From NCBI GenBank assembly GCA_018335895.1, contig JAGXQU010000094.1:1-35287 (forward strand): a stretch of DNA of 35,287 nucleotides, read 5' to 3'. Each line of letters begins with the position of its first letter. Position 1 is the first letter of the stretch. The position numbers and the translations under genes were made by a program. Shown here piece after piece: positions 27,677 through 31,679 of this stretch. Source of the stretch: Hyphomicrobiales bacterium. Its GTDB lineage: Bacteria; Pseudomonadota; Alphaproteobacteria; Rhizobiales; Xanthobacteraceae. The notes under the pieces were generated by a model, which searched no databases, had not been told where the DNA came from, and worked only from the letters and a program-made list of their open reading frames with translations.

Positions 27677-28354
27677 ATGCCGACTCGCCCCCTTCTGATT
27701 GCACCTTCTATTCTCGCCGCCGACTTCGCGAAGCTCGGCGACGAAGTGCGCGCCGCCGATCTGGCCGGCGCCGACTGGATCCATGTCGATGTGATGGACG
27801 GGCACTTCGTGCCGAACATCTCGCTCGGTCCCGCCATCGTGAAGGCGATCCGCCCGCACACGAAGAAAATCCTCGACGTGCATCTGATGATCGCGCCCGC
27901 CGACCCCTATCTGGCGGCATTCGCGGAAGCCGGCGCCGACATCATCACAATTCACCCCGAAGCGGGGCCGCATCTCGAGCGTTCGCTCTCGGTGATCCGC
28001 GATCTCGGCAAGAAGGCGGGCGTAGCGCTCAATCCCTCGACCCCGGAAAGCGCCATCGAATACGTGCTCGACAAGGTCGATCTCATTCTTGCGATGAGCG
28101 TCAACCCCGGCTTCGGCGGCCAGAGCTACATTCCCGCCGCCACCGCGAAGATCGCGAAGCTCCGCAACATGATCGGCGACCGGCCGATCGATCTTGAAGT
28201 CGATGGCGGCATCACCGCCGAGACGGCGCCGTTCGCCGCCAATGCAGGCGCAAACGTGCTGGTTGCAGGCTCCGCCGTCTACAAAGGCGGGCCGCAGCAA
28301 TACAAGAAGAACATCGAAGCGATCCGGGCCGCACAACCGCGCGCCGCTGCATGA
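27677..28354 (+). CDS. rpe: Ribulose-phosphate 3-epimerase
   Basis: Rpe interconverts ribulose 5-phosphate and xylulose 5-phosphate in the pentose phosphate and Calvin cycles. The 225-residue TIM barrel shows all signatures: [36 protein letters not shown] (His36, Asp38, metal/catalytic), [14 protein letters not shown] (His69), [13 protein letters not shown] and [15 protein letters not shown] (Asp176). The ATG at 27677 is used; a TTG five codons upstream is the other in-frame option. It lies 7 bases before purB on the same strand. Confidence 0.96.
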
Positions 28355-28361
28355 GAGTACA

Positions 28362-29669
28362 ATGATCCCGCGCTACAGCCGCCCGGAGGCGGTGCAAATC
28401 TGGTCGCCTGAAACCCGCTTTAGGATCTGGTTCGAGATCGAAGCGCACGCCGCCGACAAGATGGCGGAGCTTGGCGTCATCCCGAAGGATGCCGCGAAGA
28501 CGATCTGGGCCAAGGGCAAGGACGCGAAGTTCGACATCGCGCGCATCGACGAGATCGAGCGCGAAGTGAAGCACGACGTGATTGCCTTCCTGACGCATCT
28601 CGCGGAGATCGTGGGTCCGGAGGCGCGCTTCGTGCATCTCGGCCTCACTTCATCGGACGTGCTCGACACCTGCTTCAACGTGCAGCTCGTGCGCTCGGCC
28701 GATCTCCTGCTCGCCGGTCTCGACAAGGTGCTTGCCGCGCTGAAGAAACGCGCCTTCGAACACAAAAACACCGTCTGCGTCGGCCGCTCGCACGGCATTC
28801 ACGCGGAGCCCACCACCTTCGGCCTCAAGATGGCCGAAGCCTATGCCGAGTTCTCACGCAACAAGGAGCGTCTGCTCCGTGCGAGGGAAGAAGTCTCAAC
28901 CGCAGCCCTTTCCGGCGCGGTCGGCACCTTCGCCAACATCGACCCGAAGGTCGAAGCCTATGTCGCCGAGAAGATGGGCCTGAAGGTCGAGCCGGTCTCG
29001 ACCCAGATCATTCCGCGCGACCGTCACGCGATGTTCTTTGCGACCCTCGGCGTGATCGCTTCTTCGATGGAGCGGATCGCCGTCGAAATCAGACATCTGC
29101 AGCGCACCGAAGTGAAGGAAGCGGAAGAATATTTCTCGCCGGGCCAGAAGGGCTCCTCGGCCATGCCGCACAAGCGCAACCCGGTGCTTTCCGAGAATCT
29201 CACCGGCCTTGCGCGCATGGTTCGCGCTTATGCGATCCCGGCGATGGAGAACGTGGCGCTCTGGCATGAGCGCGATATCTCGCACTCGTCGGTCGAGCGC
29301 ATGATCGGCCCGGACGCGACCATCACGCTCGACTTCGCGCTTAACCGTCTCGCCGGACTGATCGAGCAGCTTGTGGTCTATCCGGAAAACATGAAGCGCA
29401 ATCTCGAGATGTTCGGCGGTCTCGTACACTCCGAGCGGGTGCTGCTCGCGCTCGCGCGCAAAGGTATGGCCCGTGAAGACGCCTACCGCCTCGTGCAGCG
29501 CAACGCGATGAAGACCTGGGATGCCGGTGCCGACTTCCAGCAATCGCTTAAAGCCGATGCGGACGTCGCAAAGCTCCTGAGTGCGGCGGATATCGACGCC
29601 TGCTTCGATCTCGGCCATCACCTCGCAAACGTCGATGTGATCTTCGCGCGCGTCTTCGGCAAAGCCTGA
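28362..29669 (+). CDS. purB: Adenylosuccinate lyase
   Basis: PurB (435 residues) acts twice in purine synthesis, splitting fumarate from SAICAR and from adenylosuccinate. Superfamily signature GSSAMPHKRNP is at 264-274, and the catalytic region is VHLGLTSSDVLDTC (91-104) with GRSHGIHAEPTTFGLK (141-156). The N-terminus MIPRYSRPEAVQIWSPETRF is that of PurB. The longer open frame upstream is inside rpe and is rejected. It is separated from the purC-S-Q-L block by two minus-strand genes but belongs to the same pathway. Confidence 0.97.
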   Translation: MIPRYSRPEAVQIWSPETRFRIWFEIEAHAADKMAELGVIPKDAAKTIWAKGKDAKFDIARIDEIEREVKHDVIAFLTHLAEIVGPEARFVHLGLTSSDVLDTCFNVQLVRSADLLLAGLDKVLAALKKRAFEHKNTVCVGRSHGIHAEPTTFGLKMAEAYAEFSRNKERLLRAREEVSTAALSGAVGTFANIDPKVEAYVAEKMGLKVEPVSTQIIPRDRHAMFFATLGVIASSMERIAVEIRHLQRTEVKEAEEYFSPGQKGSSAMPHKRNPVLSENLTGLARMVRAYAIPAMENVALWHERDISHSSVERMIGPDATITLDFALNRLAGLIEQLVVYPENMKRNLEMFGGLVHSERVLLALARKGMAREDAYRLVQRNAMKTWDAGADFQQSLKADADVAKLLSAADIDACFDLGHHLANVDVIFARVFGKA

Positions 29670-29680
29670 CGCAAAATAAT

Positions 29681-29704
29681 AAGGGCGGCTCGAAAGCCGC
29701 CCTT
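29681..29704. terminator. Bidirectional terminator between purB and the Q-rich gene
   Basis: AAGGGCGGCT (29681-29690) pairs perfectly with AGCCGCCCTT (29695-29704) around a CGAA loop, 11 bases after the purB stop. T-rich sequence flanks it on the right for the plus strand and on the complementary side for the minus-strand gene ending at 29709. Confidence 0.8.
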
Positions 29705-29708
29705 GTTC

Positions 29709-30923
29709 TTAGTTGTCCTGTTTCTTCTTCTGCTCGGCAGGCGGCGCCTTCTTCTGCTGAGGCTGAACGCTTCGCTGCTGCTGCTGCTGAATTTGCGGCG
29801 GCGGAGCCTTCTGTTGCGGCTGCACGTTGCGCTGCTGCATCTGCGGCGGCGGGCCCTTCGGCTGCTGGTTCTGCTGCTGCATCTGCGGCTGCACATTGCG
29901 TTGCTGCATTTGCGGCGGCGGACCCTTGGGCTGCTGGTTCTGCTGCTGGAACTGCGGCGGCGCGCCCGTACCTTTCTGCTGCCAGTTCTTCTGCTGCTGG
30001 TTCTGTTGCTGGTTCTGCTGAATCTGCGGCTGAACCTTCTGCTGTTGCTGCAACTGCGGCGGCGTGCCGGTGCCTTTCTGCTGCCAGTTCTTCTGCTGCT
30101 GATTCTGCTGAATCTGCGGCTGTACGTTCTTCTGCTGCTCGACCGGCGGCGTACCCTTCTGCGGCAGCGACTTCTGCTGCAGGTTTTGCTGCTGCTGCAG
30201 ATTCTTCTGCTGTTGGATCTGCGGCGGCGTGCCCGTGCCCTTCTGCTGCCAGTTCTTCTGCTGCGGGTTCTGGATCTGCGGCTGAACCGTCTGCTGCCGT
30301 GTGATCTGATTCTGGTCGCGCAGCCGCTGGCGCAAGAGGTCGCGGTTGTTGTTGTTGCGAAGCGCGCGGGACTCCGCACGGTTGTGTGTGACCGCCTGCG
30401 AGATGGCGCGGTTGTGGCCGGCCGCCGCCGAGTTCTGCGGATTGTGGAAGCTGATGCCGGAGACCGCGCGGCTATGCCGGCGAGCCTGCGACTCCGCGCG
30501 CGAGTGCACGACCGCCCTAGAATTGTAACGGCCGTGGAAGCCGCCATAGTAGCGGAAGCCAAAGGTCGGCCCGTACATATAATTGAGCGTGTCGTCGTAA
30601 TAGTAGCCTTGGAAGACCCTGACGTAAGGCGGCGGCGGAGCGGGACCGAACACCTGCGGCGGGTAATACTGCCCTTCGCCGAGGCCGATCACCTCGCGAT
30701 TCATAAAGCCCTGAAACTCTTCCCAGGTGACTTCGCACCACAGATCGTCGCAGCGCTGCACATCGACGACCGTACCTTCCGGCACGACGACCTGCACCGG
30801 ATACTCGATACCCGGGCCCCAGCGCAGATTGACATTGGCAGGCAATACGATCGGTGCCGCGGATGCGGCTGTCGCGGTAAGGAAAAATGCAGCGGCTGCA
30901 AGAACCGTGCGTTTCGTAAACAT
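29709..30923 (-). CDS. Secreted SH3-domain protein with decapeptide and Gln-rich repeats
   Basis: A 404-residue exported protein of unknown role. Residues 1-22 are a signal peptide (MFTKRTVLAAAAFFLTATAA then SA). Residues 24-80 form a bacterial SH3-like domain (ANVNLRWGPGIEYPVQVVVP, then CDDLWCEVTWEEFQGFMNRE), usually linked to cell-wall or peptide binding. Residues 85-135 are rich in Tyr, Gly and Pro. Residues 140-189 are five 10-residue repeats that start with His. From about 200 to the end the chain is Gln/Pro/Lys-rich, with three copies of QQKNWQQKGTG and a 23-residue tandem repeat. GTT/CAG-type low-complexity DNA explains the antisense open frame. It ends at a shared terminator. Confidence 0.82.
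   Translation of the reverse strand: MFTKRTVLAAAAFFLTATAASAAPIVLPANVNLRWGPGIEYPVQVVVPEGTVVDVQRCDDLWCEVTWEEFQGFMNREVIGLGEGQYYPPQVFGPAPPPPYVRVFQGYYYDDTLNYMYGPTFGFRYYGGFHGRYNSRAVVHSRAESQARRHSRAVSGISFHNPQNSAAAGHNRAISQAVTHNRAESRALRNNNNRDLLRQRLRDQNQITRQQTVQPQIQNPQQKNWQQKGTGTPPQIQQQKNLQQQQNLQQKSLPQKGTPPVEQQKNVQPQIQQNQQQKNWQQKGTGTPPQLQQQQKVQPQIQQNQQQNQQQKNWQQKGTGAPPQFQQQNQQPKGPPPQMQQRNVQPQMQQQNQQPKGPPPQMQQRNVQPQQKAPPPQIQQQQQRSVQPQQKKAPPAEQKKKQDN
29811..29948. repeat. 69-bp tandem duplication inside the Q-rich gene
   Basis: Positions 29811-29879 and 29880-29948 are two adjacent 69-base units that match at about 60 positions. They encode residues 326-348 and 349-371 of the Q-rich protein, both containing QQPKGPPPQMQQRNVQPQ. 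The mismatches are mostly silent, so the protein copies are nearly identical. Confidence 0.85.
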
Positions 30924-31080: not shown

Positions 31081-31407
31081 TTACTTGCCCGCCTTGATTT
31101 CGGCGGCGGCCTCGACCAGCAGCGTGTCCATCTTCGCGCGGATGTCGGCGTCGGAAATGCCCTGCTTGCCCTTGGCGTCGAGATCGCCGCGCACCTTGCG
31201 GAAAACGTCGTCGTCGCCGGCTTCTTCGAAGTCCGCCACGACGACGGATTTTGCGTAGGCTTCGGCCTCCGCGCCGGTCAAACCGATTTGGTCCGCGACC
31301 CATGCGCCGAGCTTGCGGTTACGGCGCGCGGTCGCCTTGAACTTCTGCTCCTCGTCGAGCGCAAACTTCTTTTCGAAGGCTTCTTCACGCTTGTCGAAAG
31401 TGCTCAT
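31081..31407 (-). CDS. ATP synthase zeta subunit (DUF1476)
   Basis: A 108-residue protein matching the DUF1476 family, which includes the zeta subunit that inhibits ATP hydrolysis by the F1 part of alphaproteobacterial ATP synthase. It starts MSTFDKREEAFEKKFALDEE, followed by QKFKATARRNRKLGAWVADQ and IGLTGAEAEAYAKSVVVADF; the N-terminal segment is the inhibitory region in characterised members. It is acidic and helical. The ATG at 31407 gives the family N-terminus and has GGGAG upstream; a longer in-frame start 19 codons upstream is less likely. It is not linked to an atp operon but lies upstream of and divergent from purC, an arrangement I recall in related genomes. Confidence 0.9.
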   Translation of the reverse strand: MSTFDKREEAFEKKFALDEEQKFKATARRNRKLGAWVADQIGLTGAEAEAYAKSVVVADFEEAGDDDVFRKVRGDLDAKGKQGISDADIRAKMDTLLVEAAAEIKAGK

Positions 31408-31679
31408 CGGCCGCCGTTGCTCCCGAATTCCCTGAATGCCGCCGTTGAATATAGGCCGCCCCACCCTATTTCAACTGCGGCAATCGGCCATGCGAAAGCC
31501 TACGGATCGGAGGCTATTTGTGTTGGCGAAACCGATCAGATAGGGTCGAAACGAGCAGGAAAGACGGGCGGAGTCGTCCGCTTGAGGCTCCAGAAAACCC
31601 GGTTTTCCAGACGATTCTAGCCAGCGTACGCCCGGAGTTCCGGTTCGAAATGGATTTTTTGAAGCCACGGTACACACGC

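Follow-up and report, generated by a model that had tools for sequence, protein, structure and literature searches.

A conserved histidine-phased decapeptide array in an SH3_4 protein of two related Xanthobacteraceae genera

A minus-strand gene in the window, by which we mean the whole 35,287-nucleotide stretch of Hyphomicrobiales DNA that was analyzed, codes for a 404-amino-acid protein in which an SH3_4 domain is followed by six tandem ten-residue units, each starting with His, and then by a Gln-rich tail (Table 1). We are highly confident that this array is a real, selected, lineage-specific repeat, and its decapeptide phase is most likely held by purifying selection. For the fuller reading, in which two related genera export an SH3_4 protein carrying a phase-selected His/Arg decapeptide array, we consider the chances to be about even.

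Table 1. Positions of the SH3_4 gene, its parts, and its neighbors in the window
Feature	Coordinates	Strand	Basis or remarks
purB, downstream, convergent	28194..29669	(+)	TIGR00928; likely start ~28362
Terminator-like hairpin between convergent purB and SH3 gene	29681..29704	both strands	pattern scan only
SH3_4 / His-decapeptide / Q-rich-tail protein gene	29709..30923	(-)	404 aa, P0001
Q/P/N/K-rich tail, residues 190-404	29709..30356	(-)	84/215 Q, net +22
Repeat units 2-6, residues 140-189	30357..30506	(-)	
Repeat unit 1, HGRYNSRAVV, residues 130-139	30507..30536	(-)	
Tyr/Pro/Gly-rich linker, residues 86-129, C-terminal end YGPTFGFRYYGGF	30537..30668	(-)	
SH3_4 domain, residues 29-77	30693..30839	(-)	PF06347, 28.9 bits vs gathering score 24.1
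Candidate signal peptide, residues 1-23	30855..30923	(-)	by-eye reading of sequence
ATPase inhibitor subunit zeta family gene, upstream	31081..31464	(-)	PF07345, E 2e-40; likely start ~31407

Results

Six units in a fixed ten-residue phase

The units are, in order, HGRYNSRAVV, HSRAESQARR, HSRAVSGISF, HNPQNSAAAG, HNRAISQAVT, and HNRAESRALR (residues 130-189), with the consensus H-[S/N]-R-x-x-S-x-x-x-x; their first residues, His 130, 140, 150, 160, 170, and 180, are the only histidines in the protein. An earlier sequence-only reading had described five exact repeats, and these occupy residues 140-189 just as it had placed them, but it overlooked the first unit, HGRYNSRAVV. Its observation of a Ser five residues after each His extends to all six units, and the repeats are exact in their spacing, their His, and their Ser, but not over the whole unit, with a mean identity of 37% between different units within one protein among six genus members.

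That reading placed a regular block between the SH3 domain and the Q-rich tail, and both shuffling and homologues bear it out as a genuine phased repeat. Within residues 120-200, self-identity is 0.31 at a lag of 10 and 0.25 at a lag of 20, and does not exceed 0.15 at any of the remaining lags from 1 to 25; none of 50,000 composition-preserving shuffles matched the lag-10 identity, and a chain of six evenly spaced His, with any spacing between 5 and 20, appeared in none of 10,000. When 85-residue stretches of the window protein and nine homologues were examined, lag 10 ranked first in 9 of the 10 proteins, the exception being G069 (lag 9 first, lag 10 second), and in nine proteins no shuffle out of 5,000 attained the value at the best lag, whereas in G023 two of 5,000 did. 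Chance in low-complexity sequence is ruled out by these shuffles together with the codon turnover described below. Open reading frames overlap the gene on both strands, yet orthology and low pN/pS track the minus-strand frame, and we rejected an antisense or other-frame origin.

The window protein, whose putative N-terminal signal peptide was read from the sequence by eye, is probably an exported envelope protein. The array is rich in basic residues (10 R/K versus 2 D/E, plus the six His), and the SH3 segment has a net charge of -7.

Searches of known families bear out the remark that the block matches no known repeat. Pfam yielded SH3 models only (E up to 1 in one search and 0.1 in another), with no match of the window protein to pentapeptide-repeat or other catalogued repeat models; a single NCBIfam match (E 0.29) lies far under the cut-off, and a single PHROGs match (E 0.046) falls within the SH3 part and not in the array. 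PDB sequences gave no match to residues 1-205 (E up to 0.1) or to a profile of the repeat (E up to 1), and no paper among those listed by literature searches concerned the repeat. Although the window protein scores above the SH3_4 gathering threshold, the match is confined to the domain itself, with the decapeptide array and tail lying outside it; in the sister genus, G109 passes both SH3_4 and SH3_3 (PF08239), whereas G032 passes SH3_3 only. Pentapeptide and other short-repeat solenoids resemble the array in their short fixed period, and along the array a His or a Ser comes in turn at every fifth residue; unlike them, however, it has no Leu/Phe core position, no Pfam match, and no structural support.

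Conservation of the array within the genus

Eight genomes of the genus were sampled, of which six, including that of the window, have an intact gene, one (G085) has a relic, and one (G152) has no match; the counts out of 36 units given here omit the last two. Each intact member has six units without insertions or deletions, with His and Ser each present in 36 of 36, and a separate four-row alignment has all six His columns and all six Ser columns invariant. The sequence-only reading would have put the block down to chance if homologues had lost the ten-residue phase, and the phase is held in all six intact members. Counting was done with a script that demanded a His, a Ser or Thr five residues later, and a spacing of 9 to 11, and the resulting counts are backed independently, in the genus by the alignments and in all ten proteins by the lag test, which is free of such rules. 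Over the matching portion of residues 1-205, the five other intact members share 65-82% identity with the window protein, and the linker motif YGPxFGF(R/L)YYGGF is present in all six. By repeat position, all 90 of 90 pairwise comparisons agree at position 1 (His) and likewise at position 6 (Ser), against 85/90 at position 3, 80/90 at position 9, and 44/90 at position 7; in unit 4 the Arg position is Pro in 6/6 members.

Both CAT and CAC are used at every one of the six His columns, which shows a turnover of codons that left the residue unchanged, and Ser codons vary synonymously at five of the six Ser columns. Uncorrected pN/pS (the ratio of mean pN to mean pS for 15 ortholog pairs) is 0.14 in the SH3 segment, which backs the minus-strand frame, 0.12 in the linker, 0.27 in the block, and 0.53 in the 20 residues behind it, the last figure being for codons paired by position without realignment and inflated for G104. 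The block is thus less constrained than the SH3 segment, and the rise behind it indicates that constraint falls off after the array. G104 is the most divergent member in the block comparison, with values of 0.37 to 0.61 in the five pairs that include it and 0.08 to 0.23 in the ten pairs that do not. Units of the same index are 76% identical across species, versus the 37% among units of one protein, which argues that the array is older than the radiation of the genus and did not come from a recent duplication of DNA.

The G085 genome, although 99% complete, retains no more than some 20 codons around YYGGFHGRYNSR, a relic of the linker and first repeat unit (L063). The relic lies between purB and the zeta-inhibitor gene, and the gene can evidently be lost. 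G152 (86% complete) matches neither the array gene nor the zeta-inhibitor protein, and the locus may simply be absent from its assembly.

The sister genus and the taxonomic range of the array

In the sister genus (g32) the array occurs in four of the five sampled genomes, the fifth being 68% complete, and the homologues share 39-45% identity with the window protein in the matched part of its first 205 residues. Their arrays have 5, 5, 9, and 3 units, mostly ten residues long; the third unit has nine residues in three of the four arrays and one G032 unit has eleven, so that the phase has exceptions outside the genus and strict spacing is not universal.

We searched more widely with two profiles, A3 (the linker motif plus the array) and A5 (three units), scoring at most the best 13-21 first-look candidates per genome. 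In the family, A3 matched at least 11 of 391 genomes, the G085 relic among them, in 2 of 47 genera. In the order sample of 397 genomes, which is poor in family members, A3 and A5 (E 0.001) each matched the window's own genome alone among the best 13-21 candidates of each genome. In the class, A5 at E 0.01 matched at least 5 of 385 genomes among the same number of candidates, namely the window's own and four others, the latter with E values of 0.005-0.007 in open frames of 30-81 residues, which is about the chance expectation for 385 genomes. Within 12 genomes of both genera, A5 gave two weak matches elsewhere, with E values of 0.031 (G152) and 0.052 (G121). Among the best 13-21 candidates per genome in the family, order, and class samples there is no convincing array beyond the two genera, and we rejected the notion of a wide family. 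Arrays of at least three units are absent from L046 (a second SH3 match in G090), from the weak matches L047-L051, and from L013 and L015-L033. A mobile-element origin was likewise discarded: BLAST searches, in which the low-complexity filter may mask such arrays, gave no plasmid match to residues 1-205 and no phage match to a 49-residue sister-genus array.

The locus and the origin of the gene

The order purB, SH3 gene, zeta-inhibitor gene, and then purC recurs in all five other intact genus members and in three of four sister-genus members; around the G090 copy neither a purB nor a zeta-inhibitor neighbor was seen. A pattern scan of the region found eight terminator-like sites versus a shuffle mean of 2.5. 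In G109 the array gene and purB are separated by a second SH3 gene (L043, 3754-4467), a 238-residue frame that has no His array.

A search for the zeta-inhibitor protein covered 28 genomes of the family, made up of G152, G090, and a single genome for each of 26 further genera; 26 of the 28 have it. In four of these 26 loci (genera g2, g7, g19, and g23), an SH3 gene in the same orientation adjoins the zeta-inhibitor gene within flanks of up to 1.5 kb; within the same flanks, the other 22 loci are without an SH3 match at E 0.001. In one of these, that of G015 (g16), purB directly adjoins the zeta-inhibitor gene with no space for an intervening gene. Like the window gene, the four SH3 genes code for an SH3-type domain after a signal-peptide-like start, but purB was seen on the opposite side in g23 only, and their tails are different, being Pro/Tyr-rich in g2, g7, and g19 and made up of GWGPRP repeats in g23, with no His decapeptides in any. 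In G022 (L104, 593-1327), an SH3 gene with a tail of GWGPRPGWGPRP repeats lies between purB and the zeta-inhibitor gene, so that a gene of this kind bears another repeat there. We read this distribution as that of an older SH3 gene at the locus, missing in many genera, whose tail was replaced or remodeled in the two-genus lineage; alternatively, SH3 genes may have inserted independently beside the zeta-inhibitor gene. The array itself most likely originated within the lineage of the two genera.

Interpretation of the array

Of the interpretation given by the sequence-only reading, the phased repeat is borne out; the metal-binding or solenoid-like element that it envisaged is a candidate. As our preferred but tentative mechanism, we suggest that the array could be a multivalent binder of an anionic polymer or a metal, a role that we rate as somewhat less likely than not. 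The SH3 domain would dock on the envelope, and the array would display His and Arg side chains at even intervals, with a greater positive charge once the His are protonated, and these could bind an anionic envelope polymer or metal at several points simultaneously; the Q-rich tail may be a disordered extension. The consistent Pro for Arg in unit 4 weakens the idea that every unit is an equal binding site, and the unit has one fixed His, no further Cys, Asp, Glu, or His being fixed in it as a metal ligand.

The main rival to a His/Arg binding array is a structural spacer, a fixed-geometry rod or helical stalk that keeps the SH3 domain away from the tail and in which His and Ser serve for packing or capping, and we regard this as slightly less likely than binding. 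An AlphaFold model of residues 1-208, built from four sequences, has a mean pLDDT of 31.6, too low to use, for the SH3 beta-barrel fold as well. The 69-residue block alone was modeled as two helices (12-32 and 42-68) with a low-to-middling overall pLDDT of 63.6, which we weigh lightly; block-mean pLDDT for the second helix is 73-84, and the break falls at the HNP unit. Such helices agree with a stalk, as do the helix-like heptad stretches directly behind the block in several orthologs, but ten residues make a non-integer number of alpha-helical turns, so the His would not lie on a single face. Moreover, the low-confidence model draws on an alignment of only four similar sequences, and the moment at 100 degrees is not significant (p 0.27 to 0.54). 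It is less likely again that the array is of a beta type, a small solenoid or amyloid-like stack of strands with small (S/A) and large (H/R/E) faces and a His ladder beside the Q/N-rich tail. Mean residue volume alternates between large and small at 180 degrees (permutation p 0.032 in the genus and 0.036 in the sister genus), an even repeat length preserves the phase of this alternation, and the adjoining tail is indeed rich in Q/N; however, the alternation comes from a post hoc scan of five angles and two scales, hydropathy at 180 degrees is not significant (p 0.21 and 0.10), there are few hydrophobic core residues, the AlphaFold block model has no strands, and no Pfam solenoid or pentapeptide family matches.

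We also weighed whether the repeat could be neutral, a tandem duplication in the fast-evolving tail of the protein with a phase that reflects recent descent only. The tails of SH3 proteins in the family are highly variable and can bear other repeats, and the gene has been lost in G085. However, the His and Ser codons turn over synonymously with no replacements in 36 of 36 units, by which this account is largely refuted, and in the same period the sequence behind the block has changed greatly, which leaves a neutral origin scarcely credible. A bolder version of the binding array strikes us as quite improbable: an undescribed repeat fold whose stacked histidines act, in an exported protein, as a ladder gated by pH or metal, the whole being an innovation of one bacterial lineage at the tail end of an otherwise unremarkable SH3 gene.

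This looks like a clear example of how the tail of an SH3 gene already in place can gain a new short tandem repeat, the phase of which selection then fixes; array-less SH3 neighbors, sister-genus copy-number variants, and a gene-loss relic are available as a comparison set. Should the His array indeed bind a metal or anionic polymer in a pH-dependent manner, its compact natural design would merit study; should it not, the array would still be a useful test of how selection holds spacing amid changing sequence.

Variation in the tail

Alignments show that the tail behind the array is strongly diverged among orthologs, and the Q-rich composition of the window protein's tail is accompanied by low conservation. 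Tails are Q/K-rich in G023 and G063 and highly charged in G069 and G109. In G121 and G137 (L005 and L006) the array is followed by a heptad-like K/L/D/Q stretch, RELREQKQDLRDQK, which has no counterpart in the window protein and whose pattern suggests a coiled coil or charged helix. In G032 (L012 / L044) nine His decapeptides are directly followed by repeats of the DGDGIRNRQD type, which resemble the TSP3-type calcium repeats (PF02412 and PF18884) but score 21.8 and 23.1 against a cut-off of 25; the window protein has none of these. An SH3 protein of G012 (L013) has tandem repeats of the GTWQGxRT type in its tail.
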